Source: Halomonadaceae bacterium T82-2 | GTDB taxonomy: Bacteria > Pseudomonadota > Gammaproteobacteria > Pseudomonadales > Halomonadaceae | DNA length: 64,000 nt | Assembly: GCA_001577635.1 (NCBI GenBank) | Contig: LSBP01000008.1 | Span: forward strand, 1 to 64,000 | Reading direction: 5' to 3' | In this document: positions 7,751-64,000 of the stretch, piece by piece | Layout of the letters: every line of letters begins with the position of its first letter | Position numbering within the stretch: the first letter of the stretch is position 1 | Position numbers and translations under genes: made by a program | The notes under the pieces: generated by a model | Seen by the model: only the letters and a program-made list of their open reading frames with translations | Told to the model about the DNA's origin: nothing | Databases searched by the model: none

Positions 7751-8859
7751 CCCCGGAACGGCGCGACTGGCTGGCGCTGTGCCATCTGCCGAAGGTGGGG
7801 CCGCGGCGGCTGGCCGAGCTGAGGGCGGCCCGGCCCGCCTGGCCGGACGGCTGGCTGGCGGTGCTGCCGGCACCGGCGCGGGACGCCCTGCGGCTGTGGC
7901 TGGCTCGCCCGGCGGCGAGCCCGCTCGAGGCGCTGGTCGACCGCGCCCTGGCCTGGGAGGCGGCGTCGGCGACCCATCACCTGCTGTATCCCGGGCATCC
8001 GGCCTGGCCGGCCCTGCTCGATGAACTGCCCGATCCACCGCCGCTGCTCTGGGCCTGGGGGGAGCTTTCCGCGCTCGACGCGCCGGGGCTGGCGATCGTC
8101 GGCACCCGCCGGCCCACCCGCGACGGCCTGGGCAATGCCGCGCGCTTCGCCGGCGAGCTGGCCGGTGCCGGGTTCTGCGTGATCAGCGGCATGGCGATGG
8201 GCATCGACGGTCGTGCCCATCAGGCCGCGCTCGAGGCCGGCGGCTCCAGCATCGGCGTGCTGGGCTGCGGCATCGACGGCGTCTACCCGGCCCGGCACGG
8301 CGCGCTCTACCGCGCGATGCGCGAGACCGGCCTGCTGCTCAGCGAACACCCGCCCGGCACCCGGGCCAATCCGGCGTTCTTCCCGCGCCGCAACCGGCTG
8401 ATCACCGGGCTGTCGCTGGGCGTGCTGGTGGTCGAGGCGGCGGAGAAGAGCGGCTCGCTGATCAGCGCACGGCTGGCCGGGGAGCAGAACCGCGAAGTGT
8501 TTGCGCTGCCCGGCTCCCTGAACAATCCCCAGGCGCGCGGCTGCCTGGCGCTGATTCGCCAGGGCGCCACCCTGGTGACGGAACTCGACGACATCCTCGC
8601 CGAGCTCGCTCACTGGATCCCGGTGGGCGGCGAGCCATTTGGCGAGCCATTCGGCGAGCCTGCCGGCGCGGCATCGCCGCCGGCGACACCGGAGGAGCCG
8701 CTGCTGGCCCTGCTCAGCGACTCGCCCACGCCGCTGGACCTGCTCATCGAGCTGTCCGGCCAGGGCGTGCTGCACTGCCAGCAGCGCCTGCTGGAGTTCG
8801 AACTGGACGGCCGGGCGGCCCAGGTGCCCGGTGGCTGGGTCCGCCTGCCCGGGGCCTGA
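7747..8859 (+). CDS. dprA: DNA-processing protein DprA
   Basis: Binds single-stranded DNA entering during natural transformation and loads RecA. The 370-residue protein has an N-terminal SAM-like segment, the central Rossmann-like domain with AIVGTRRPT, SGMAMGIDGRAHQ, GCGIDGVYPARH and FFPRRNRLITGLS, and a C-terminal winged-helix-like domain. It overlaps the LysM gene by 4 bp (ATGA), so the two are coupled. The linker before the C-terminal domain contains a small triple repeat GEPFGEPFGEP (about 8631-8662) encoded by near-identical 12-base units. Confidence 0.95.
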   Translation: MTPERRDWLALCHLPKVGPRRLAELRAARPAWPDGWLAVLPAPARDALRLWLARPAASPLEALVDRALAWEAASATHHLLYPGHPAWPALLDELPDPPPLLWAWGELSALDAPGLAIVGTRRPTRDGLGNAARFAGELAGAGFCVISGMAMGIDGRAHQAALEAGGSSIGVLGCGIDGVYPARHGALYRAMRETGLLLSEHPPGTRANPAFFPRRNRLITGLSLGVLVVEAAEKSGSLISARLAGEQNREVFALPGSLNNPQARGCLALIRQGATLVTELDDILAELAHWIPVGGEPFGEPFGEPAGAASPPATPEEPLLALLSDSPTPLDLLIELSGQGVLHCQQRLLEFELDGRAAQVPGGWVRLPGA

Positions 8860-8883
8860 GGCGCTGTGACCCCCGGCGCGGCA

Positions 8884-8892
8884 TGCTAGAAT
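8884..8892 (+). promoter_or_regulatory. Candidate extended -10 promoter for tsaC
   Basis: TGCTAGAAT is an extended -10 element (TGn followed by TAGAAT at 8887-8892), 36 bases before the tsaC ATG. The -35 region is poor. The same GCTAGAAT core recurs upstream of der and of the candidate small RNA. Confidence 0.4.
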
Positions 8893-8927
8893 GAGCGGCT
8901 TTCGGACGTGCGGAGACAACGGGCGAA

Positions 8928-9482
8928 ATGAGCACCGCGACTGGTTTCGAGGCCGCCGTGGCGACCCTGCGCGACGGCGGCGTGATCGCGTATCCCACCG
9001 AAGGGGTGTGGGGGCTGGGTTGCGACCCGGACGACCCCGCGGCGCTGCAGGCCGTGCTGACCCTCAAGCAGCGCGACCCGGCCAAGGGGTTGATCCTGAT
9101 CGCCGGCGACATCGCCCAGGTGGCGCCGTGGCTGGAGGGCATCAGCAAGGCCCAGCGCGAGACGCTGCTGGCCACCTGGCCCGGGCCCAACACCTGGCTG
9201 GTGCCCGACAACGGCCGGGCCCATCCGCTGCTGCGCGGCGAGCATGACCGCGTCGCCCTGCGGGTCAGTGACCATCCGCTGGTCGCCGTGCTGTGCGCCG
9301 CCCACGGCGGGCCGATCGTCTCCACCTCGGCGAACCCGGCGGGCGCCGAGCCGGCCCGGGACCTGGCCACCGTGCGCCGCTACTTCGGGGCGTCGCTGGT
9401 CGCCGTGGACGGCGCGCTGGGTGGCCAGGCCCGTCCCAGCCGCATCCGCGACCTGGTCACCGGGGACACGCTGCGCGAGTGA
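8928..9482 (+). CDS. tsaC: Threonylcarbamoyl-AMP synthase TsaC (YrdC)
   Basis: Makes threonylcarbamoyl-AMP from threonine, bicarbonate and ATP, the first step of t6A modification at position 37 of ANN-decoding tRNAs. The 184 residues form a single YrdC domain with VIAYPTEGVWGLGCDP at the N-terminus, the KQRDPAKGLILI segment and PIVSTSANPAG, all typical. It lacks the extra Sua5 domain, as expected for the short bacterial TsaC. It is followed by hemF after 57 bp in the order known from Pseudomonas. Confidence 0.95.
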   Translation: MSTATGFEAAVATLRDGGVIAYPTEGVWGLGCDPDDPAALQAVLTLKQRDPAKGLILIAGDIAQVAPWLEGISKAQRETLLATWPGPNTWLVPDNGRAHPLLRGEHDRVALRVSDHPLVAVLCAAHGGPIVSTSANPAGAEPARDLATVRRYFGASLVAVDGALGGQARPSRIRDLVTGDTLRE

Positions 9483-11280
<1,798 letters not shown>

Positions 11281-53635: not shown

Positions 53636-53740
53636 CCGCCCGGCCGACAGGCGCTGTACGAGCGGCTGGGCTGGCGGGTATTCGAGACCGTGAACTATCG
53701 TGGCGAAACCGTGACGCTGATGGTGCGGAACCTGGAGTGA
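53636..53740 (+). pseudogene. GNAT 3' fragment (second copy)
   Basis: Begins one base after the stop of the RTX-like gene. Its first 86 bp (53637-53722) repeat the GNAT gene. The reading frame is still open and reads PGRQALYERLGWRVFETVNY, then continues to its own end VRNLE and a stop at 53738-53740. The different last residues and mostly silent differences suggest a remnant of a diverged tandem GNAT paralogue rather than a fresh copy. Confidence 0.8.
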
Positions 53741-53826
53741 GCGGCGTCGGCGCGCCGGGGCGCTACCGGCCCGAGGGGCGTTGACGCTACCATGCCGGGG
53801 TCCTGAAACGATGAGCGAGACCGGCG

Positions 53827-55329
53827 ATGACCCTGGACCCGATTCCCCTGAGCGTAACGGCGCTGGTGGCGCTGCTGCTCGGCATGGCCCTGGCGGGCTG
53901 GCGCGGCGCGCGCCGCGTCGATGACTGGCGGCATGCCTGTGCGGAGCGCGAAGCGCAGGTCGAAGCGCTGCGCGAGCAACTCGGACAGTGGCAGGTGGCA
54001 CTTCAGGAGCGGGACGCCCGGCTGAGCCAGGCGGAGAGTACGGCGGCGCGCCTCGAGGCGGAGCGGGAGGCGGCCCGCCAGCAGCAGATCGAGTATCGCC
54101 ACTGGTGGGAGGTCGAGCGCGAACGTCGCGAGTCGCTGGGAGCGGAGCTGGCCGAGCTGAAGACGACCCACGGGGAGCTGACGGCGACCCTGGCGCAGAA
54201 GGAGTCTCATTTCCACGAGCAGTTCGCCACCTTGCGGGAGAGCCGCGATGCGCTCAAGCAGGAGTTCGAGAACCTGGCCAACGAGATTCTCGAACGCAAG
54301 GGGCGGGCATTCTCGGCATTGTCGCAAGAGCGCATCGGTGGCTTGCTGCAGCCCATCCACAGCGAGATGAAGGGCTTTCGCGAGACGGTCGAGTCGATCC
54401 AGCGCCAGGAGAGCGAGCAGCGCGTTCAGCTGCGCACCGAGTTGCAGAACCTGCAGAGCCTCAACCGGGCGATCACCGATCAGGCCGAGCGGCTGACCCA
54501 GGCCCTGCAGGGCCAGAAGAAGACCCAGGGCAACTGGGGCGAGCTGATGCTCGAGAACGTGCTCGACGGCGCCGGGTTGCGTCGGGGCACGGATTACGAG
54601 CGCGAGGTCAGCTTCACCACCGAGGAGGGACGGCGGCGTCCGGACGCCCTCGTTTACCTGCCGCAGCAGCGCCATCTGGTCATCGATGCCAAGACGTCGC
54701 TGGCCGCCTACACCCGTTACGTCAATGCCGATGACGAAAGCGAACGGCGCCGGGCGCTCGCCGAACACTGCCAGGCGGTCCGGGATCGCATCGACGAACT
54801 TGCCGATCGCCACTACTACGACCTGCCAGGGCTCAACTCGCCGGAGGTGGTGGTCATGTTCGTGCCCGTGGAGTCGGCTTTCGTCGAGGCGATCAAGCAT
54901 GACGCCACGCTGTATCAGCACGCCATCGAGCATCACGTGCTGGTCGCCACGCCCACCACGCTGCTGACCAGCCTCAATATCGTGCGTCAGCTGTGGCGCT
55001 TCGAGAATCAGAGTCGCCACAGCGCCGAGCTGGCCGACCGTGCTGAGAAGTTCCATGCCAAGCTCGCCGCCTTCCTCGCCAGCATGGAGGACGTCGGCAA
55101 GCGGCTCGACGGGGCTCGTACCAGCTACGACAGGGCGATGAATCAGCTACTCGCCGGCAAGGGCAATCTGATCAAGCAGGCCGATGAATTTCGTGAGCTG
55201 GGTGTGGCGGTCAAGAAGGAGTTGCCTCGCGAGCTGGTCGAGCGGGCCCGGCTGGAGCTCGATCACGGCAGTGGTGAGCCGTCGTCGGCCGGGCTCTCTG
55301 ACCGGGACACGAGCCGCTCGAATGCCTGA
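53827..55329 (+). CDS. rmuC: DNA recombination protein RmuC
   Basis: Membrane-anchored nuclease-fold protein that limits recombination at inverted repeats in E. coli. The 500 residues have an N-terminal membrane segment (about 9-26), a long coiled coil (about 35-230), and the RmuC domain with KKTQGNWGELMLENVLDGAGL, RRPDALVYLPQQRHLVIDAKTSL and VVVMFVPVESAFVEA, the last two matching a restriction-endonuclease-like core. The start is the ATG at 53827. Its last 67 bp overlap the Crp/Fnr gene end on the other strand. Confidence 0.94.
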   Translation: MTLDPIPLSVTALVALLLGMALAGWRGARRVDDWRHACAEREAQVEALREQLGQWQVALQERDARLSQAESTAARLEAEREAARQQQIEYRHWWEVERERRESLGAELAELKTTHGELTATLAQKESHFHEQFATLRESRDALKQEFENLANEILERKGRAFSALSQERIGGLLQPIHSEMKGFRETVESIQRQESEQRVQLRTELQNLQSLNRAITDQAERLTQALQGQKKTQGNWGELMLENVLDGAGLRRGTDYEREVSFTTEEGRRRPDALVYLPQQRHLVIDAKTSLAAYTRYVNADDESERRRALAEHCQAVRDRIDELADRHYYDLPGLNSPEVVVMFVPVESAFVEAIKHDATLYQHAIEHHVLVATPTTLLTSLNIVRQLWRFENQSRHSAELADRAEKFHAKLAAFLASMEDVGKRLDGARTSYDRAMNQLLAGKGNLIKQADEFRELGVAVKKELPRELVERARLELDHGSGEPSSAGLSDRDTSRSNA

Positions 55330-56117
55330 GCGTTGCCGTCGATGTCCGGGCCATGATGCGTCCGGGGCCGGCTTTCCTGCAGGCGAGCGTGCAGCCCACC
55401 GATATCGTCGCTCAGGTAACGGGCGTCGAGGCCGGCTTCCTCGTACAGCTTGTCGCAGTCGTGGACCTGGATGCGGCGGCGCTGCTTGCTGAGCACGCCG
55501 TCGCGCTCCATGTCGTTGAGCGAGCGGCAGACGTGGACCGAGGTCAGGCCGAGAATCTCGCCAAGCAGTTTCTGCGACAGCGGCATGAAGAAATCGCGCA
55601 GATCCGTCGCCTGAATGCGGTTGAGCCGCAGCTGCGTCTCGATGACGAAGTGGGCGATGCGTGCCCGGGCGCTGCGCCGCGAGATCATCAGCAGGCGTTC
55701 GGTAATGGCGGCTTCCTGGCGCGCGAAGGCGGCCACCAGTGCCATGGCCAAGGGCGTCGAGCGTTCGAAGACATCCACGATATTGACGTGGGGAAACGAG
55801 CAGACCACACCCTCGGTGATCATGCGTGCCTCCGAGGCATGGGTCGCGAAGGTCAGGTCGCGCAGGCCGATGATGTCTCCCGGCAGCAGCACGTCGATAA
55901 CCTGCCGGTTGCCCTCGGCATCGTCGCGGAACGTGCAGGCCCAGCCGCTGCGGATGGCGAAAAGTCGCTCCACCCGGCCATTCGCCGGCCACAGTGAGTA
56001 CTTGTTGACGACACGGGTGGCAGGCCCCTCCAGAGTGTTCAGCAGTTGAGCATCCGCGTCGTCCAGCCTGAAATAGTGACTCAGGTTGGTCAGGGTAGGG
56101 CTATGGCCATGAGGCAT
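55263..56117 (-). CDS. Crp/Fnr family transcriptional regulator
   Basis: A 284-residue regulator with an N-terminal cyclic-nucleotide-type beta domain (about 30-135, RSGWACTFRDDAEGNRQVIDVLLPGDIIGL) and a C-terminal winged helix (about 160-235) with SQKLLGEILGLTSVHVCRSL as recognition region. The FNR cysteine set is missing, so it is not an oxygen-sensing FNR. The C-terminus extends about 50 residues past the helix and overlaps rmuC antisense. I chose the ATG at 56117 (MPHGHSPTLTNL) by fit to the family; its ribosome site is weak. The signal is unknown. Confidence 0.85.
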   Translation of the reverse strand: MPHGHSPTLTNLSHYFRLDDADAQLLNTLEGPATRVVNKYSLWPANGRVERLFAIRSGWACTFRDDAEGNRQVIDVLLPGDIIGLRDLTFATHASEARMITEGVVCSFPHVNIVDVFERSTPLAMALVAAFARQEAAITERLLMISRRSARARIAHFVIETQLRLNRIQATDLRDFFMPLSQKLLGEILGLTSVHVCRSLNDMERDGVLSKQRRRIQVHDCDKLYEEAGLDARYLSDDIGGLHARLQESRPRTHHGPDIDGNAQAFERLVSRSESPADDGSPLP

Positions 56118-56394
56118 CGAGGAACCAACTTGGGGGTCGGGAAATGGTATAGCAGGAGAGTCGTGCGGCCTGTTCGTGAGGACAGTCTGCAATGAGCGCT
56201 GCCGGCTCTCGTCGGCGCCATGCATAACATGGGTTGTTCATGAGGGCCGGTGATTAAGGATAGTTAAGGTGTGGGAGAAGTCCAACCCGAGTGTGGACAG
56301 GTGGGAGTTGCGTCAGTGTCATGCTCCCCCGGAGAGGCATCCTGCCAAGATGGAAACGGGCAGGATGTGATCCTCAGGCCCCCGGCCGCCCCCC
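56118..56394. other. Spacer between two regulator genes
   Basis: 277 bases without a credible gene. An inverted repeat CATCCTGCC (56338-56346) and GGCAGGATG (56359-56367) lies downstream of the response regulator gene and may end its transcript, although no T run follows. Confidence 0.5.
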
Positions 56395-57081
56395 TCATTC
56401 GGCCCGGCGTTCCAGCCGGTAGCCGTGTTGATAGACACTCTTCAGGCGCAGGCCGTGGCTGCCGTCGAGTTCCAGCTTGTGGCGCAGGCGGCTGATGTGG
56501 GTGTCGACCGTGCGGGTCGAGACGTCGGCGCGAATACCCCACACCAGTTCGAGTATATTGGCGCGGGAGAATAGCTGGCCGATGCGGCTGAAGAGCAGGC
56601 TGGCCAGACGGAATTCGCGCTCGGTGAGGCGGATTTCCCGGCCGTCGAGATGGATGCGGTGATTGTCGTGGTCGAGCCGGTAGGCGCCGATGCGGTTGGG
56701 GCTGGCTGGGGCGTGAAGCCCGGCGCGGCGCGCCAGCGCACCTACCCGGGCGCGCAGTTCCGAGGGGCGCAGGGGTTTGGCGAGGAAGTCGTCCGCGCCC
56801 TTTTCCAGAGCGCGTACCACATGCTCTTCGGCATCACTGGCGGTGATGAACAGGATCGGGCCCTCCCAGCCGTGGTGACGGCGTAGCTGGTCGACGAGAT
56901 CCATCCCCGAGGCATCCGGCAGGTGCCAGTCGATGATCAGCAGGTCGAAGGGCTGCTCGAGCAGCGCCCGGTTGAGCTCGCTGGCGCGCTGATAGGTGCT
57001 GACCCGGGTCTCGTCCTGCATCAGGCAGTGCTGCAGGAAGTCGCACTGGTCGAGGTCGTCGTCGAGAACGCCGATATGCAT
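56395..57081 (-). CDS. OmpR/PhoB-type response regulator
   Basis: A 228-residue DNA-binding response regulator. The receiver domain (about 1-115) has the acidic pair in VLDDDLDQ, the phospho-acceptor Asp in LLIIDWHLPDASG near residue 51, and the Lys of LAKPLRPSE near 100. The winged-helix output domain (about 125-225) shows LTEREFRLASLLFSR and DVSTRTVDTHISRLRHKL. It is divergent from the SUOX-like/kinase operon, with a direct-repeat site between them. The hybrid kinase is the probable phosphodonor through its HPt domain. The ATG at 57081 begins MHIGVLDDD. Confidence 0.92.
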   Translation of the reverse strand: MHIGVLDDDLDQCDFLQHCLMQDETRVSTYQRASELNRALLEQPFDLLIIDWHLPDASGMDLVDQLRRHHGWEGPILFITASDAEEHVVRALEKGADDFLAKPLRPSELRARVGALARRAGLHAPASPNRIGAYRLDHDNHRIHLDGREIRLTEREFRLASLLFSRIGQLFSRANILELVWGIRADVSTRTVDTHISRLRHKLELDGSHGLRLKSVYQHGYRLERRAE

Positions 57082-57148
57082 GAGAGTGGCCACCCTTTCG
57101 GCTTTGGCTAATTTGTCTTCGGTTGTACCACAGCCGACCGTTGATGTT

Positions 57149-57169
57149 GTCACAAAGGTTCACAGTTGC
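57149..57169 (+). promoter_or_regulatory. Direct-repeat operator, site 1
   Basis: A 21-bp site with TCACA at 57150-57154 and again at 57160-57164, one helical turn apart, the spacing typical of OmpR/PhoB-family dimers. It ends 15 bases before a TATACT -10, so its second half overlaps the -35 position. It is nearly identical to 61262-61282. Confidence 0.65.
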
Positions 57170-57184
57170 CGATCGTACACGCCG

Positions 57185-57190
57185 TATACT
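57185..57190 (+). promoter_or_regulatory. -10 element of the SUOX-kinase operon
   Basis: TATACT, 26 bases before the ATG at 57217. The -35 position is taken by the TCACA repeat, suggesting activator dependence. Confidence 0.55.
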
Positions 57191-57216
57191 GATCCCATCC
57201 ATCGGGAGGGGATGTT

Positions 57217-57729
57217 ATGCCAACCATTTTCGGCAAATCACTGGCCTTGGCGGGTATCGCTCTGTGTGTTCTGTTCGGCGGGCAGGCGCTGGCTCTGGAA
57301 ACGCCCGGAGGGCCGGTGATTCTCACCGTCACGGGCGATATCGCGAATACCAATGCGCCGGGCGAGGCGCGCTTCGATCGCGCCATGCTGCTGGCGCTGC
57401 CCCAGCATGAGACCGCCACCCACACCCCCTGGCACGATGGCAGGGTCGTGTTCAGCGGACCGCTGGGGCGGGATCTGCTCGATGCCGTCGGAGCCCGTGG
57501 CAGCGAGCTGCGGGTCACGGCGTTGAATGACTATGCCTCGTCCATTCCGGTTTCGGACTTCCGCCAGCATGACGTGATTCTCGCCATGTCGGCCGACGGC
57601 AAGCGGCTGCGCATCCGCGACCAGGGGCCGCTGTTCGTGATCTATCCCTTCGACGACGAGCCGGACCTGCTCAACGAGACGGTGATGACCCGCTCGGTGT
57701 GGCAGCTCTCGCGAATCGACGTACGCTGA
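57217..57729 (+). CDS. Periplasmic SUOX/molybdopterin-fold protein, probable sensor partner
   Basis: A 170-residue exported protein with a signal peptide at about 1-27 (hydrophobic core LALAGIALCVLFGGQALA). The mature part resembles the oxidoreductase molybdopterin-binding (SUOX) fold in short form: VTGDIANTNAPGEARFDRAMLLALPQ, TPWHDGRVVFSGPLGRDLLD-like core, VTALNDYASSIPVSDF and a C-terminal NETVMTRSVWQL. The mature protein has no cysteine, so the molybdenum-ligating Cys of SUOX and MsrP is missing and enzymatic activity is doubtful. It is followed after 19 bp by the hybrid kinase, suggesting it presents a signal to it. Confidence 0.82.
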   Translation: MPTIFGKSLALAGIALCVLFGGQALALETPGGPVILTVTGDIANTNAPGEARFDRAMLLALPQHETATHTPWHDGRVVFSGPLGRDLLDAVGARGSELRVTALNDYASSIPVSDFRQHDVILAMSADGKRLRIRDQGPLFVIYPFDDEPDLLNETVMTRSVWQLSRIDVR

Positions 57730-57748
57730 CGCGCCGAGTCCATCGCTC

Positions 57749-59980
57749 GTGCGTGCTCTGCTGCTGCCGCGATTCCGGATCATTAGCCTGCTGGTACTGC
57801 TGTTCTTCCTGTCGGCCATGGTGACCGGCGGCGTGGTCTATCAGCGCCAGCAGGCGCTCGAGAACCGCCTGCTCGAGGACCTGGTCTGGGCCACCTATCA
57901 GTTCGATCGTGAAGTCCGCGAGCTGCGCCTGATACTCGGGCACACGCAAGCCGACGACCTCGACGAACTGCTGACCCGCTACGAGATTCTCTACAGCCGC
58001 GGCCAGCTGTTTGGTCGTGGCGAGATCGCCCGGGGCATGGCCGGCATACCCTCGGTCAAGCAGCCCCTGGCCGAGGCGCTGGCGGCCATTCAGGCGATGG
58101 ATGCGGACTTTCAGGCGCTGGCCTCGGGCGAGCAGCGCCTGACACCGGCCTTTCGTCAGCAGCTGGCGGTGAAGATGCAGCGTCTGCAGGACGCCACCGA
58201 GACCACGTTGGTCAATACCAACGCCCACGTGGCGGCGACCCGGACCGCATCGCGCCAGGAACTGCTGCGGCTGTATGGCGTCGTGCTGCTGATGGTGCTG
58301 TTGATGGTGGGCGCCGGCGGGCTGCTGGTCCGGGTACTGGTGCGCCAGATACGCGGCCGGGCGCTCAAGACCGAGCAGCTCGAGGCGCGCACCCGGGAGC
58401 TCGACGAGGCATTGGCACGGGCCGAGGCGGCCAGCCGCGCCAAGTCGGAGTTCATGGCGGTCATGAGCCACGAGATTCGCACGCCTCTCAACGGGGTGGT
58501 GGGGGTCGCCGATCTCCTCGACGTGGAGGTTCGCAGCCGGCGGGGCACCGAGCTGCTCAAGACTCTGCGGGACAGCGCCATGGGGCTTCAGGTGGTGATC
58601 AACGACGTTCTCGATTACACCAAGATCGAGGCCGGCTCGCTGGATCTCGATGACCGGCCCTTCTCGCTGAGCCGGTTTCTCGAGCAGGTCTGCGCCAGCT
58701 ATCAGGCCCGCCACGCCGGGAGCACGGGGCTGCGCTTCGAGTGCGAGATGGACGCCGGGTTGCCCGATCGGGTCCGTGGCGATGTCAACCGGCTGCGCCA
58801 GGTGGTGATGAACCTGCTCAACAACGCCTTCAAGTTCACCGATGCGGGGTTTGTGTGCTTCCGCGTCACGTGCGACGGGGATCAGGGCATTCGCTTCGCG
58901 GTACGCGATACCGGCTGCGGTATCGAGCCTGCCATGCTGTCGCGGCTGTTCGCGCCATTCTCGCAGGTCGACAGCTCGATTGCGCGCCGGCACGAAGGCT
59001 GCGGGCTGGGGCTGGTCATCTGCCAGCGTCTGGTATCGGCGATGGGCGGCGAGATCGGCGTCGAGAGCCACCCCGGGCTGGGCAGCCTGTTCTGGTTCCG
59101 GATCCCGCTGCCGGAAGCCGAAGATCCGGCCGACAGCAGCGAGCTGCCGGTACAGGACGCGGCGCTGGCCCGGCACCGGCTGCTGATCGTCGAGGACAAC
59201 CCCGTCAACCAGGCGTTGACGCAGGCCATGCTGGAGTTTCTGGGGCAGACGGCCGATATCGTGGATAACGGCGAGGCGGCCCTGGAGACACTGGCCGCCA
59301 CGTCCTACGACTTGGTGCTGATGGACATGCAGATGCCCATCCTGGATGGTCTGGAAACCACACGGCGCTGGCGAGCCCGGGAAATCGGGCATCGCCTGCC
59401 GATTGTCGCCATGACCGCCAATGTCATGCCGGCCGATCGGGAACGCTGTCAGAAAGCGGGGATGGACGACATGATCTTCAAACCGTTCACGCGGGCCGAC
59501 CTGCGCGAGCTGCTGGCGCGCTGGCTGGGGCGGGCGCCTTCCGGGACGCCCGCGGCGAGCGACGAGGGAGCCGATGCCGGCACCCGGGAATCGGCGCCGC
59601 AGACACAGGGCGCCCTGCTCGACGCGGCGACCATGCAGGAGCTTCACGAGGCGCTGGCGCCCGAGGTGCTCGAGAGCCTGCTGAGTACCTACCTGACGCG
59701 CCTGGAGGGTCGGCTGGCGCGGCTGCGTGCCGCCCGTGACGCCGAGGACCGCGCCGCCATCGCCGCCGAGGCCCACTCCCTGAAGGGGGCGTCATCGTCC
59801 ATGGGCTGCGCAGGGCTCGCGCGTGCCGCGGCCCGGCTCGAGACGGAGGCCGGCGAGGCATCCACCGAACAGCTGGAGGCGATGATCGCCGAGCTCGAGA
59901 CGCTCCAGGCGGCCACACAGGATAGGCTGGTAGAGAGAGGACTGGTGCCGGAGATGGCGCTGGTGGCGGGAAATGACTAG
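57749..59980 (+). CDS. Hybrid sensor histidine kinase (HisKA-HATPase-REC-HPt)
   Basis: A 743-residue membrane kinase. The first membrane helix is at about 11-30, a periplasmic helical sensor covers about 31-175, and the second helix is at about 176-200. HisKA carries His241 in FMAVMSHEIRTPLNG. HATPase (about 300-450) has NNAFKFTDAGF, DTGCGIEP and GCGLGLVIC. REC (about 470-590) has Asp in LVLMDMQMPILDG and Lys in FKPF. HPt (about 630-735) has His in EAHSLKGASSSMG. It forms a full phosphorelay whose final target is probably the divergent response regulator. The start is a GTG at 57749. Its stop shares CTAG with the convergent REC-EAL gene. Confidence 0.93.
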   Translation: MRALLLPRFRIISLLVLLFFLSAMVTGGVVYQRQQALENRLLEDLVWATYQFDREVRELRLILGHTQADDLDELLTRYEILYSRGQLFGRGEIARGMAGIPSVKQPLAEALAAIQAMDADFQALASGEQRLTPAFRQQLAVKMQRLQDATETTLVNTNAHVAATRTASRQELLRLYGVVLLMVLLMVGAGGLLVRVLVRQIRGRALKTEQLEARTRELDEALARAEAASRAKSEFMAVMSHEIRTPLNGVVGVADLLDVEVRSRRGTELLKTLRDSAMGLQVVINDVLDYTKIEAGSLDLDDRPFSLSRFLEQVCASYQARHAGSTGLRFECEMDAGLPDRVRGDVNRLRQVVMNLLNNAFKFTDAGFVCFRVTCDGDQGIRFAVRDTGCGIEPAMLSRLFAPFSQVDSSIARRHEGCGLGLVICQRLVSAMGGEIGVESHPGLGSLFWFRIPLPEAEDPADSSELPVQDAALARHRLLIVEDNPVNQALTQAMLEFLGQTADIVDNGEAALETLAATSYDLVLMDMQMPILDGLETTRRWRAREIGHRLPIVAMTANVMPADRERCQKAGMDDMIFKPFTRADLRELLARWLGRAPSGTPAASDEGADAGTRESAPQTQGALLDAATMQELHEALAPEVLESLLSTYLTRLEGRLARLRAARDAEDRAAIAAEAHSLKGASSSMGCAGLARAAARLETEAGEASTEQLEAMIAELETLQAATQDRLVERGLVPEMALVAGND

Positions 59981-61182
59981 AAGCGCTCGAGGTGGTGCTG
60001 GGCCAGCCAGGCGCTGAAGGGGCCGGCGGCCATCGGCCGGCCGAACAGGTACCCTTGGCCGAGCCGGCAATGCATGTCGGCCAGCAAAGCCTGCTGCTCG
60101 GCGGTCTCGATGCCCTCGGCGACGACGCAGAGATTCAGGCGTTCCCCGAGGTCGACGATGGTCTGCGTGATGGCCAGCGCTTCGGGGTCGATGTCGCAGC
60201 AACCGACGAAGCTGCGGTCGATCTTGATCTGGTCGAAGGGCAGGCGGTAGAGCTGGGCCAGCGACGAGTAGCCGGTACCGAAGTCGTCCATCGACAGCGT
60301 GCAACCCCTGTCGCGCAGGCTGTTGAGGACGTGCCGCGAGTATGACAGGCACTCCACGGCACCGCTTTCGGTGATTTCCAGCACGATGCCGCCGAGATCG
60401 ACGCCGTGGCGCGCCGCCATGGCCTCGATGGTACTCAGACAGTCGGGTGCGCGCAGCAACTGCTGGGGCAGGTTGATGGCCAGGTCAAAAACGTGGCCGG
60501 CTGCCTCCCAGCGCGCCTTCTGGGCAAACGCCAGCTCCATGATGTGCCAGGTCAGCGTGATGATCTGCTGGCTGCGCTCGGCCAGCGGGATGAAGCTGTC
60601 GGGAAAGACCAGCCCACGCTGCGCGGATTGCCAGCGGACCAGTGCCTCCACCCCGGTCAGCTGGCCGGTAGCGAGTTCGAGCTTGGGCTGGAAGGCCAGA
60701 AACAGCTCGTCGCCGGCCATCGCCGCGGTCAGCTGCGACGGTGCGATCGGTGGCGGCGCCGGACGGCGGTTTTCCAGCAGGTGCTGCAGGACGCCGGGCT
60801 GAATTGGCTTCTGCAAAAAGCCCAGCATCGCCAGGCCGGTGCCGCGTCCCTGGGCGACGGCGCGCTCGAGGGTTGCCACCGAGGCGCTGCTGATCAGCAC
60901 CACATCGGCGCGGACCCGCTTTTCCTGCAGGAAGTGCATGACATCCTGGCCGGTGAAATCGCCCAGGTCCATGTCCAGAAAGATCAGTTCGGCGTCCAGC
61001 CGCTCGCTGTGCCAGGCCAGCTCCTCCAGCCCGCCGGCCACCTCGACCCGATAGCCGTGACGCTCCAGCAGGGCGCGCAGCAGCAGCTGGATCTCGATAT
61101 CGTCATCGACGATCAGTGCACGGAGCCGCCGGGCCGTGGAGGCGGCTCGGGGCGAATCGTCGAGAGTGGGCGTCGAGGACAT
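59977..61182 (-). CDS. Response regulator with EAL phosphodiesterase output
   Basis: A 401-residue protein with a receiver domain (about 20-140; acidic pair in IVDDDIE, phospho-Asp in LIFLDMDLGD, Lys in LQKPIQ) and an EAL domain (about 155-395). EAL catalytic motifs are intact: EALVRW, NLPQQLL, EITESGAVE, DDFGTGYSSL, KIDRSF, AEGIET and QGYLFGRPM. It should hydrolyse cyclic-di-GMP under phosphorylation control. Starts at 61182, 61197 or 61227 are possible; I use 61182, which leaves a leader after the candidate -10. It lies tail-to-tail with the hybrid kinase. Confidence 0.9.
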   Translation of the reverse strand: MSSTPTLDDSPRAASTARRLRALIVDDDIEIQLLLRALLERHGYRVEVAGGLEELAWHSERLDAELIFLDMDLGDFTGQDVMHFLQEKRVRADVVLISSASVATLERAVAQGRGTGLAMLGFLQKPIQPGVLQHLLENRRPAPPPIAPSQLTAAMAGDELFLAFQPKLELATGQLTGVEALVRWQSAQRGLVFPDSFIPLAERSQQIITLTWHIMELAFAQKARWEAAGHVFDLAINLPQQLLRAPDCLSTIEAMAARHGVDLGGIVLEITESGAVECLSYSRHVLNSLRDRGCTLSMDDFGTGYSSLAQLYRLPFDQIKIDRSFVGCCDIDPEALAITQTIVDLGERLNLCVVAEGIETAEQQALLADMHCRLGQGYLFGRPMAAGPFSAWLAQHHLERF

Positions 61183-61215
61183 GGCATGCGATCTCATGGG
61201 TCGAGTCAGCCTCTC

Positions 61216-61221
61216 AGCATA
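61216..61221 (-). promoter_or_regulatory. Candidate -10 of the REC-EAL gene
   Basis: Minus strand TATGCT in the context GCCGTATGCTGA. The SUOX operon has GCCGTATACTGA at its -10, so the two promoters look related. Confidence 0.45.
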
Positions 61222-61261
61222 CGGCATGACGGCGCTCGATCGTTCGGCTCAGGCGACACAT

Positions 61262-61282
61262 GTCACAGAAGTTCACATTTGC
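61262..61282 (+). promoter_or_regulatory. Direct-repeat operator, site 2
   Basis: TCACA at 61263-61267 and 61273-61277. The 21 bp match site 1 (57149-57169) at 18 positions. It lies about 80 bases upstream of the REC-EAL start, overlapping the acyltransferase stop codon, and is inverted relative to the REC-EAL promoter. Confidence 0.6.
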
Positions 61283-62037
61283 GACGACAGGCTGACCCGG
61301 TGAGGCGTCGCCGTCCGGGACTGGCGCGTCAGTGTTGTCTCGATGCGTGAGTAAAGCGCCCGCAAATCGCCGGGCAGCTCGGCGACCGCACGGCGCTGAT
61401 CGATGTAGTAGGCGCGACGCAGGCCGTGGAAGGTCACGGGCTCGCCGACGCAGGTGAAGCGCAGGCCGTGGATCGCCAGGCGCCGCGGCAGGCGGTGCTG
61501 CATCATGGCGAAGACATGATGCCGGCCGGCCAGACCGACCAGTGCCGTCGCCGCCAGAAACAGGCCGACGCCGATCAGCGCAAAGCCGGCGCGCTCCTCG
61601 GGCGGGAACAGCGAGGGGGCGTCGGGACGGCCGCGGGTGTCCGCCCGGTGGCGAAAGGCCGGGGAGATGGCCAGCCGGGAAATCTCGCAGAGACGATCGC
61701 GCGGCAGACGCTCCGGATGCAGGGTGGGATGGGTCAGGCTGTCCCGGCAGTGCGCCTCCAGGGGCAGCCGGCGCAGCGCGTCGGGGCCGTCCGTCAGGGC
61801 CGGTACCAGGCGCACGCAGCCTGCCGGAATCCCGCTGGCGCGGTGCTCGAGCAGCACGATCAGGGACGCCGTGTCGTGCTCGTCGTACTCCAGGTGCGCG
61901 TCGGGGTCCTCGTGCATCCGGTAATCGAGTTCCCGGCGAAAGACGGCGTGACGCAGGGCATAGGCCCGTTCCCGCAGCACGGGGGTAGTGGCTAGATGGA
62001 AATCAAACGTCGCCTCGAAACGATCCAGTGCATTCAC
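61273..62037 (-). CDS. LuxI-superfamily acyltransferase (PEP-CTERM/exosortase-associated type)
   Basis: A 254-residue protein of the GNAT/autoinducer-synthase fold. Diagnostic features are RERAYALRHAVFRRELDYR near the start, EYDEHDTASLIVLLEHR, an IPAGCVRLVPA strand and CEISRLAISPAFRHR, matching the family often linked to exosortase loci. Such proteins are thought to use an acyl carrier or acyl-CoA donor; the product is unknown. No exosortase or PEP-CTERM protein is in the window. The start is a GTG at 62037 with AAAGGGA upstream. It lies between two cyclic-di-GMP genes on the same strand, 46 bp after the GGDEF-EAL gene. Confidence 0.8.
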   Translation of the reverse strand: MNALDRFEATFDFHLATTPVLRERAYALRHAVFRRELDYRMHEDPDAHLEYDEHDTASLIVLLEHRASGIPAGCVRLVPALTDGPDALRRLPLEAHCRDSLTHPTLHPERLPRDRLCEISRLAISPAFRHRADTRGRPDAPSLFPPEERAGFALIGVGLFLAATALVGLAGRHHVFAMMQHRLPRRLAIHGLRFTCVGEPVTFHGLRRAYYIDQRRAVAELPGDLRALYSRIETTLTRQSRTATPHRVSLSSQM

Positions 62038-62083
62038 GACAAGTCCCTTTCTGAAAGGGGCGCTGGGCCCCGATTGGTTGTGA

Positions 62084-64000
62084 TTATGGTGAGTCTTCCG
62101 AACCGCCCTGCACGTACTCGGTCGCCGGGGAGCGGTCGACATCGATGACGTCCGCCACCGCCATGGGGCGGCCGATGTAGAAGCCCTGGGCATAGGTGAT
62201 GCCGTAGGCGGCGAGCAGCGGCAGCATGCTTTCGCGATCGACGAACTCGGCGATAGTGCGCTTGCCGAAGCCGTTGGCGATGTCGGCGATGGCCTTGACG
62301 ATCAGGCGGTCCTCGGGGCTGTCGATCAGCTTCTGGATGAACGAGCCGTCGATCTTGATGTAGTCGGCGGGCAGTTGACCCAGGTAGTGGAAGCTGCTGA
62401 AGCCGACCCCGAAGTCGTCGAGTGCCGTCCGGCAGCCCAGCTCGCGGATGCCCTGCAGGACGCCGCGGGCGGTGGCGAAGTCGGTGACCGCGGCGGTTTC
62501 GGTGACCTCGAGAATCAGCCACCGCGGGTCGGCGCCGGAGGCCGCCAGGGCGTCGGCGAGGAAACCGGTCAGCCCCGGATCGTGGAGCGACTGGCCGGAC
62601 AGGTTGACCGCCAGACTGATGCCGCGCTGCTGCAGGCGCGCCAGCAGCGACAGGCTGTGACGCAGTACCCAGCGGTCGAGTTCGACGATCTGCCCGCTGC
62701 GTTCGGCGATGGGGATGAACAGACCGGGCATCACCGGATTGCCGTTGTCGCCGTGCATGCGCAGCAGCGCCTCGTAGTGACGGACACGGTTGTCGGCGAG
62801 GTGCAGAATGGGTTGCAGCACCAGTTCGAAGTCGTCGTCGCGCAAGGCCTGGCGGATGCGCTCCACCCAGTAGACGCGCTGCTGCAGCTCCTCCCGCGAG
62901 CGGTGCACCATCGACAACTGGTGCCAGCGCTGGCTGCCGTTTTCCTTGGCCTTGTACATGGCCAGGTCGGCACTCGCCATCAGGTCGGTGGGGGTCAGTC
63001 CGTGTTCGGGGTAGAGCGCAATGCCGATGCTGCCCATGGCCCGATGGCGGCGCCCGGCGACCGAGAAATCGATCATCTCGAGTACCTGGACGATGCGCCG
63101 GGCCACCTGGTCGGCCTGGGCCTCCCGGGCATCCTGAAGCAGGATCGAGAACTCGTCGCCGCCCAGTCGGGCGATGACCGCCTCCTGGCCGAGCTCTTGG
63201 GACAGCGCCTCGGCGACCAGCTTCAGCAGCTGGTCGCCGGCGTTGTGGCCGCTGAGCTCGTTGACCTCCTTGAACTGATCGAGATCGAGGAACAGAACGG
63301 CACCCCGGGCCTCGGGCGTCAGCGACTTTTCGAGGACCTCCTGGAAGTAGCGGCGGTTGTAGAGGTTGGTCAGCGGGTCGCGATGGGCCAGCCAGGAGAG
63401 GCGGTCCTCGGCCTGTTTGCGGTCGGTGATGTCCAGCCCCACCGAGATCAGGGTGCCGGCAGCATGCCCCTCGCCGGGCAGCGGGGCATGGAACCAGGCG
63501 ATGGTCCGCCGCTCGTTGTCGGGAGTAATCAGCGTGCCCTCTTCCTGGCCGGGGCGCGCCGGCGTTCCCGGTGCCTGATCCACCCGGAAGCAGGCAGCGA
63601 ACGTCTGGCCCAGCAAGTCTTCCCGCGGGCGTCCCGAGAGGGTTTCGGCGAAGTGGTTGACCAGGGTGATGTAGCCACGGGCGTCCTGGGTGAGGATCAG
63701 CACGTGCGCCGTGTCCAGCAGCCCGGCGACGAAGTCGCGCTCCTGGCCCAGCTCGGTCAGGCGCTGGGTCAGCTCCCGGTCACGGCTGGAGACGGTGTGC
63801 TCGAGGGTTTCCAGCTGCTCGGCCAGTTGCAGGGTGGTGCGTTCGAGCGTATCGATCTCGTCGGTATACAGGCGGGTGCCGGGCGGCAGGGCCTGGCGGA
63901 CCTGGGTAAAGTCGCGCCGTGCCAGCCGCGGCAGTAGCGTGGACAGCAGGCGCAGGCGCGCCATGGGCCGCCACAGGATCAGCAGCAGCAGTGCCTCGGC
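62084..64000 (-). CDS. HAMP-PAS-GGDEF-EAL cyclic-di-GMP enzyme, cut by the window end
   Basis: Partial: the frame stays open to the last base. The missing N-terminus must include the sensor, because the visible part opens with the end of a membrane helix (LLLLILWRP) and a HAMP-like coiled linker. A PAS domain (ending VGLDITDRKQAE) follows, then GGDEF with intact RLGGDEFSIL, then EAL with EALLRMH, NLSGQSL, EVTETAAV, DDFGVGFSSF, KIDGSFI and AEFVDRES. The EAL domain has the main metal and catalytic residues, so phosphodiesterase activity is plausible and cyclase activity possible. No RxxD site precedes GGDEF. Confidence 0.9.
   Translation of the reverse strand, partial: AEALLLLILWRPMARLRLLSTLLPRLARRDFTQVRQALPPGTRLYTDEIDTLERTTLQLAEQLETLEHTVSSRDRELTQRLTELGQERDFVAGLLDTAHVLILTQDARGYITLVNHFAETLSGRPREDLLGQTFAACFRVDQAPGTPARPGQEEGTLITPDNERRTIAWFHAPLPGEGHAAGTLISVGLDITDRKQAEDRLSWLAHRDPLTNLYNRRYFQEVLEKSLTPEARGAVLFLDLDQFKEVNELSGHNAGDQLLKLVAEALSQELGQEAVIARLGGDEFSILLQDAREAQADQVARRIVQVLEMIDFSVAGRRHRAMGSIGIALYPEHGLTPTDLMASADLAMYKAKENGSQRWHQLSMVHRSREELQQRVYWVERIRQALRDDDFELVLQPILHLADNRVRHYEALLRMHGDNGNPVMPGLFIPIAERSGQIVELDRWVLRHSLSLLARLQQRGISLAVNLSGQSLHDPGLTGFLADALAASGADPRWLILEVTETAAVTDFATARGVLQGIRELGCRTALDDFGVGFSSFHYLGQLPADYIKIDGSFIQKLIDSPEDRLIVKAIADIANGFGKRTIAEFVDRESMLPLLAAYGITYAQGFYIGRPMAVADVIDVDRSPATEYVQGGSEDSP

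Follow-up and report, generated by a model that had tools for sequence, protein, structure and literature searches.

A probable PruR-DTB phosphorelay of Halomonadaceae with a candidate response regulator, a conserved predicted operator and a very small predicted regulon

Which genes answer to the kinases that are partnered by PruR-type periplasmic proteins? Pairs of PruR with a DTB (DcpA-TorS-BaeS) protein have already been described in Proteobacteria, and passages of a 2026 review count more than 5500 unique sequences of PruR-linked regulator pairs; two forms are common, and in one of them a kinase replaces the cyclic-di-GMP (c-di-GMP) enzyme (PMC13259868). The literature searched, with the primary 2024 PruR-DTB paper outside its scope, named no response regulator, operator or target for DTB kinases; a term search found 'response regulator' 0 times in the available text of the review, and further papers name PruR or DcpA in other settings (the available part of PMC11575326 cites 2015 work). 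The question is raised by a gene cluster in a 64,000-nucleotide stretch of Halomonadaceae bacterium T82-2 (contig LSBP01000008.1, positions 1 to 64,000; hereafter the window), where a PruR-type protein and a hybrid kinase lie between an OmpR/PhoB-type response regulator and a REC-EAL protein. We conclude that this cluster probably forms a signalling unit of the PruR-DTB kind that has a response regulator of its own and serves a dedicated, very small regulon; the regulator would bind tandem half-sites, most likely as an activator.

Open reading frames and Pfam matches place the four genes side by side, as a first-pass annotation of the sequence had proposed. The regulator (56395-57081, minus strand, 228 residues) combines REC and Trans_reg_C domains (PF00072, PF00486); its candidate phospho-acceptor, D51, falls in the word IIDWHLP at 49, and the remaining REC residues are present. 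On the plus strand follow the gene for the PruR-type SUOX-fold protein (57217-57729, 170 residues) and, directly downstream on the same strand, that for the kinase (57749-59980, GTG start). The REC-EAL gene (59977-61182, minus strand) lies tail to tail with the kinase gene, and its product carries the signature words EALVRW, EITES, DDFGTGYSS, KIDRSF, AEGIET and QGYLFG, which we take to be suitable for recognising phosphodiesterases; on these words it is a predicted c-di-GMP phosphodiesterase. The PvrR model matches this protein over its full length at 212.4 of 580 bits, below the cut-off.

The first-pass annotation had recognised a SUOX-like protein beside a hybrid kinase; fold and domains were right, while the identities of the two proteins as a PruR homolog and a DTB kinase were missed, as was the chemoreceptor described below as a member of the circuit. 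With a nine-sequence profile, the SUOX-fold protein matched pterin-binding proteins in the PDB (7KOS, E 2e-51; 7RKB, 6.6e-48; 7KP2, 2.1e-27; 7KOM, 3.2e-21), and its PF00174 match was weak and above the cut-off. A hydrophobic N-terminus ending in QALALE was seen by inspection alone; the sole cysteine, residue 17, lies within this hydrophobic stretch, and the predicted mature protein is Cys-less. An Asn-x-Tyr motif and a tryptophan are kept (ALNDY at 102, with N104 and Y106; RSVWQ at 159, with W162). These are residues that the review describes for PruR (PMC13259868), and the catalytic, molybdenum-ligating cysteine is absent from the window protein. By these homologies the protein is a PruR homolog and, by family, a predicted binder of reduced pterins. 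A second PruR-DTB pair is encoded elsewhere in this genome (locus L034; C43:7224-7724 and 7778-9949), its PruR being 58% identical; neither the nearby open reading frames nor a genus search placed an OmpR-type regulator of this kind alongside it.

The circuit could be real and the PruR protein nevertheless bind some other small molecule, or act as a constitutive partner that senses no pterin, a reading that we consider unlikely. Among 20 matches of a FolM-type reductase model in this genome, 0 lie above the cut-off, a result to be weighed against the model's behaviour in 14 control genomes, only 1 of which gave a match above the cut-off, and some sister clusters have no PruR next door. The strong homology to crystallised pterin-binding proteins, the kept N104, Y106 and W162 and the absence of cysteine from the predicted mature protein all argue for a pterin ligand instead, and Vibrio cholerae, in the review's account, has PruR-DcpA pairs yet no PruA homolog (PMC13259868).

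The kinase has a helical N-terminal domain with a WX7E motif, then HisKA, HATPase_c, REC and HPt domains. The motif reads WATYQFDRE at 47-55 (W47 to E55), and its W and E are invariant in 16 of 16 aligned sequences; text patterns for WX7E, crude ones that miss variants, matched 57 and 66 of 84 loci. The sensor domain was modelled as all-helical (predicted local distance difference test score, pLDDT, 90.6), and a Foldseek search with this model gave 0 matches at E <=0.001 and weak helical-bundle matches only, including the periplasmic sensor domain 4K0D. By eye, about 140 residues separate the membrane helices; the review passages give a periplasmic domain of about 190 residues (PMC13259868). 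The best NCBIfam match of the whole protein is the TorS model, at 410.2 of 676.5 bits and so below the TorS cut-off. Judged by its place after pruR, the WX7E motif and its HisKA, HATPase, REC and HPt domains, the kinase is classified as DTB-type, its likeness to DcpA resting on WX7E and the helical model. At three loci of one genus (L278, L280, L281) and at L285, a DTB-like WX7E kinase stands divergent from the regulator with no PruR gene between them.

Two copies of a 21-bp site accompany these genes. Operator site 1 (57148-57169, plus strand; 21-bp site 57149-57169, GTCACAAAGGTTCACAGTTGC) comprises tandem 10-bp half-sites between the regulator gene and pruR, and overlaps the -35 position of the pruR-DTB operon, whose predicted -10 (TATACT, 57185-57190, plus strand) lies 17 bp past the 20-mer site. 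Operator site 2 (61261-61282, plus strand; 21-bp site 61262-61282, GTCACAGAAGTTCACATTTGC) lies upstream of REC-EAL, covers the last codons of an acyltransferase gene ending at 61273 and is 39 bp from the predicted REC-EAL -10 (TATGCT, 61216-61221, minus strand). The motif is reversed relative to REC-EAL at site 2, and the two sites are thus oppositely oriented relative to the genes they precede. Just as first annotated, the sites are identical at 18 of 21 positions and each contains two TCACA words 10 bp apart. The shared -10 context GCCGTAT(A/G)CTGA proposed with them is present at both window promoters, but the word is absent from the listed REC-EAL and chemoreceptor promoters of relatives; the spacing from site to -10, unlike the word, recurs there.

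The site is not scattered at random. Allowing up to three mismatches, the 21-mer has 2 matches in the 3.42-Mb genome, namely sites 1 and 2, compared with 0 for the reversed pattern and an expectation of 0.06 by equal-base arithmetic. Exact TCACAN5TCACA occurs twice in the window, while 100 shuffles averaged 0.06 and none reached 2; with one mismatch the pattern is uninformative there (2 found, 2.12 expected). A third exact copy in the genome, at C23:18888, falls outside the matches of the extended motif. This 14-position motif, TGTGAACNNNTGTGACA, has 2 perfect matches genome-wide (sites 1 and 2), a single match with one mismatch, which lies upstream of a chemoreceptor gene on contig C44, and one with two mismatches (C44:66629), which was judged to be chance.

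The architecture of the sites is that of a direct repeat. At period 10, mean identity was 0.44 across 13 distinct pruR-type sites (largest shuffle mean, 0.33) and 0.55 across 21 target-type sites (largest shuffle mean, 0.39); for the pruR-type sites period 8 scored equally high (0.45), and inverted symmetry stayed inside the shuffle range. Response regulators of the OmpR/PhoB type bind tandem direct-repeat sites with a period of 10-11 bp, a pattern that these sites fit, with the OmpR-type regulator as their predicted binder.

Site 1 is conserved among relatives together with the divergent regulator. Such a regulator is present in 31 Halomonadaceae clusters (the window and 30 of 80 named loci), and 30 of these 31 carry site 1 at 11/14 or better. 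It is carried at this level by three of the 49 named PruR loci in which no divergent regulator was detected (L104, at a contig edge, was left out): L077, where the contig ends about 180 bp before pruR, L078, which has a fragment of the regulator gene, and L113, whose regulator is in tandem. At L113 (Zobellella iuensis), regulator, PruR, kinase and REC-EAL are arrayed on one strand, with a weaker site (11/14) before pruR. Identity between species is 88% in the site versus 42-48% in the 20-bp windows on either side, and the window's own copy is 90% identical to the others while its flanks are 16-34% identical. Five PruR-DTB loci without the regulator (L061, L064, L069, L071 and L087; four Billgrantia and one Halomonas metagenome-assembled genome) have in common a different conserved sequence ahead of pruR, which reads CCTGCGACCCAGTGATTAACAGTCACT on the opposite strand and is perhaps another operator.

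The targets show a second arrangement. Many relatives have a chemoreceptor gene (4HB_MCP_1, HAMP and MCPsignal domains) immediately upstream of REC-EAL and co-oriented with it, and there the site precedes the chemoreceptor; in several relatives without a linked chemoreceptor, it precedes REC-EAL. A position weight matrix built from site 1 alone was too strict here, and a 12-position core was used. Linked REC-EAL/chemoreceptor regions numbered 35, five of them without a detected complete regulator. In the 30 regions of loci with the regulator, 21 had a site of at least 10/12, all in one orientation, versus 1.2% of 1050 shuffles; this and the 30 of 31 clusters with site 1 bear out the suggestion that the sites would be conserved in related genomes. 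At a threshold of 9/12 in the family orientation, 29 of the 35 regions matched. In this genome, in M. coralii (G011) and in G008, the chemoreceptor is on another contig and has kept its site there.

Promoter geometry bears on the sign of regulation. The pruR -10 lies at offset 17 or 19 in 29 of 30 clusters (29 bp in L058), and the site therefore covers the -35 position in nearly all of them. Toward the regulator gene, a -10-like word occurs at offset 16 in 20 of 30 clusters but is absent from the window. At the targets, a TANNNT -10-like hexamer is found 38 or 39 bp downstream in 32 of 32 retained sites (29 linked ones and three at unlinked chemoreceptors, the six siteless regions being dropped), where the background rate is 0.65% per position; 13 matches in sum, 9 of them at offset 28, came from the 20 further offsets examined. 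The -10 offset at the targets thus differs by about 20 bp from that at pruR. By analogy, a site overlapping the -35 is in the position of a class II activator and one upstream of the -35 in that of class I; the regulator would overlap the -35 at pruR and sit just upstream of it at the targets, and is most likely an activator. The same circuit with the regulator as a repressor, bound over the pruR -35 and shutting the operon until the signal arrives, is compatible with that overlap. We regard it as unlikely, given a fixed distance to the -10 like that of PhoB-type activated promoters and target sites placed, as at activated promoters, upstream of the -35 position.

The tail-to-tail arrangement of REC-EAL and the kinase persists even in loci where neither the regulator nor a good site was detected (L053, L067, L070, L090), suggesting that REC-EAL receives phosphate from the relay as well. 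These loci could also mean that REC-EAL is merely a phosphotransfer partner of the kinase and that its promoter site has nothing to do with the regulator, but this is very improbable: where the regulator is present, sites of fixed geometry precede REC-EAL or the chemoreceptor-REC-EAL pair in most loci, and both inputs may coexist.

Within 14 genomes of the genus, regulator and REC-EAL occur in the same seven, although as neighbouring genes they do not provide independent evidence. The chemoreceptor is present in nine; within the 300 bp examined upstream, its site was found in 5 of 5 genomes with the regulator (11 or 12 of 12) and in 1 of 4 without, the other three regulator-less genomes having a 9/12 match over the start codon. 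A degenerate pattern scanned across the genomes of 12 relatives gave 27 matches (10 for the reversed pattern), 22 at the two cluster promoters and five elsewhere; both promoters were matched in ten genomes and one of the two in G063 and G069. These genomes were picked from cluster-bearing loci and the pattern was derived from those loci, so that the cluster matches arise by construction, and the informative part is that nothing else stands out: the regulon is near-exclusive. At L279, regulator (13/14) and chemoreceptor (10/12) each have a site with no PruR or kinase nearby, an arrangement that links the sites with the regulator and not with the kinase; in the sister locus L282 only the chemoreceptor site is present. 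At both L279 and L282 the regulator gene lies beside the chemoreceptor gene with no PruR or kinase match in the stretch, possibly as an orphan regulator fed by another kinase.

Several observations weigh against a dedicated circuit of this kind. When up to two mismatches are allowed, the 14-position motif is no commoner in the 14 genus genomes than its reversed control (85 versus 83, the control being a total to two mismatches with no breakdown), and specificity therefore rests on near-perfect matches and their place: with at most one mismatch there are 10 matches, eight before pruR, REC-EAL or the chemoreceptor and two elsewhere (G010 and G005). The single cluster lacking site 1, L059 (on the same contig as G008), scores 8/14 with the cluster present. 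Six of the 35 linked regions (L062, L067, L070, L085, L090, L093) have no 9/12 match in the family orientation, and three of these (L062, L085, L093) have the regulator. The four loci whose kinase has no adjacent PruR (L278, L280, L281, L285) imply that PruR is dispensable. A plain counter-example is genome G002, where the chemoreceptor site persists although the regulator, this PruR-DTB pair and REC-EAL are all missing. Counts across loci are, moreover, not independent events, as the species are related.

The wiring was also followed in loci held out from the original set. In a family-wide search the regulator was found at E <=1e-70 in 59 of 275 genomes, and 20 loci were taken, one of which (L295) is the known locus L080 and not independent. 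Six (L286, L288, L289, L290, L292, L293) have a regulator relative that lacks PruR within 800 bp and whose stretch gave no REC-EAL or chemoreceptor match; in four of them a PruR-kinase pair lies some 6.5-7.3 kb off. Upstream of the regulator the site is missing in all six (best scores, 7-9 of 14). Agreement in the remaining 13 was only partial: site 1 (at least 12/14, -10 at 18 or 19) in 5 of 7 with divergent PruR, a chemoreceptor site of at least 10/12 in 5 of 10, a -10 at 38 or 39 in 6 of 10, good chemoreceptor sites without a -10 at 38 or 39 in L283 and L285, and a site in 0 of 3 at REC-EAL genes without a chemoreceptor. These results too count against the proposal in its general form: the wiring weakens with distance and is not universal.

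The chemoreceptor stretch of G002 is 99.8% identical to that of this genome over 3017 bp. A block of about 7.6 kb (window 53637-61266), comprising an RmuC-like gene (by eye), a CRP/FNR-like gene, the regulator, pruR, the kinase and REC-EAL, has no match in place at G002:C1:1810203-1810507, where both flanks are 89-90% identical, and no site 2 was seen in the sequence at this junction. The difference between 99.8% identity and the 89-90% beside the missing cluster suggests recent exchange or loss.

Ownership of the sites by the product of the neighbouring gene at 55263-56225, which has CRP/FNR-like domains by Pfam, is an extremely improbable reading, for although TGTGA/TCACA words resemble CRP half-sites, the sites are direct 10-bp repeats with inverted symmetry in the shuffle range, such a gene adjoins the cluster only in the window and, of 80 named loci, at L059 alone, many sites would be expected of a global regulator whereas near-perfect ones are few, and the sites accompany the OmpR-type gene even without PruR and the kinase (L279).

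Taken together, these observations favour the following circuit. The activity of the kinase would be set by the PruR-type protein, docked on the kinase's helical periplasmic domain; from His the phosphate would travel to Asp and the HPt His, and from there reach the OmpR-type regulator and, probably, the REC-EAL receiver too. The regulator would then bind tandem 10-bp half-sites (core TGTCAC-N4-GTTCAC) before pruR-DTB and REC-EAL, or before chemoreceptor-REC-EAL in relatives, so that a signal would raise the sensor pair itself, a c-di-GMP phosphodiesterase (which the same relay may phosphorylate) and a chemoreceptor, favouring low c-di-GMP and motility. The link drawn in the first-pass annotation between one phosphorelay, its own expression and c-di-GMP turnover gains support from the non-scattered motif and the conserved sites, with regulator binding, its sign and the ligand as the predicted parts. 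In its fullest form, which we put forward tentatively and as somewhat short of an even chance, a pterin-responsive closed phosphorelay would control c-di-GMP at two levels, by phosphorylating REC-EAL and by transcribing it with the chemoreceptor from a dedicated operator that has hardly any further copies in the genome.

Beyond the cluster, the acyltransferase gene just upstream of REC-EAL (61273-62040) is of the PEP-CTERM/exosortase type (TIGR03694, above cut-off), with a PAS-GGDEF-EAL gene (62084-63964) farther upstream; L058 and L059 show the same order.

Like the PruR-DTB pairs outlined in the review passages, the window has a PruR homolog, a Cys-less SUOX-type protein, followed by a membrane kinase with a periplasmic WX7E (PMC13259868); identified here in addition are a candidate cognate OmpR-type regulator, an HPt domain, a predicted operator and predicted target genes (REC-EAL and the chemoreceptor). 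With the PruR-DcpA system of Agrobacterium tumefaciens, as summarised there, it shares a PruR protein, putatively periplasmic here, and an output, predicted here, of lower c-di-GMP (PMC13259868). DcpA is itself the c-di-GMP enzyme, whereas the window would use a kinase relay and a transcription factor acting on a separate phosphodiesterase. The PvrR-type regulators of Pseudomonas have a REC-EAL architecture and are likely recipients of a hybrid-kinase relay; the window REC-EAL differs in falling below the PvrR cut-off, in standing behind the regulator's predicted operator and, in relatives, in often lying directly downstream of a chemoreceptor. The TorT-TorS-TorR system for trimethylamine N-oxide in E. 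coli and Salmonella likewise has a hybrid kinase with HPt and an OmpR-type regulator. TorT is a periplasmic protein, though not of the SUOX fold, the Tor targets are a respiratory operon rather than c-di-GMP and chemotaxis genes, and the window kinase scores below the TorS cut-off. The two systems nonetheless have in common 10-bp boxes containing GTTCA (tor box CTGTTCATAT; PMC9239176).

For the DTB branch, then, a regulator, a binding site and a target are all predicted here at base-pair resolution, and since the target is again a predicted c-di-GMP phosphodiesterase, the role of DTB systems can be addressed directly in halophiles that grow in culture. With essentially two predicted operators per genome, the transcription factor also provides a clean model for dedicated two-component circuits, and the site kept by both chemoreceptor and REC-EAL after their separation illustrates conservation of a regulon through rearrangement. 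If the proposal is true, the widespread PruR-DTB class would gain its first assigned output, and c-di-GMP breakdown would be where the DcpA and DTB branches of PruR systems converge.

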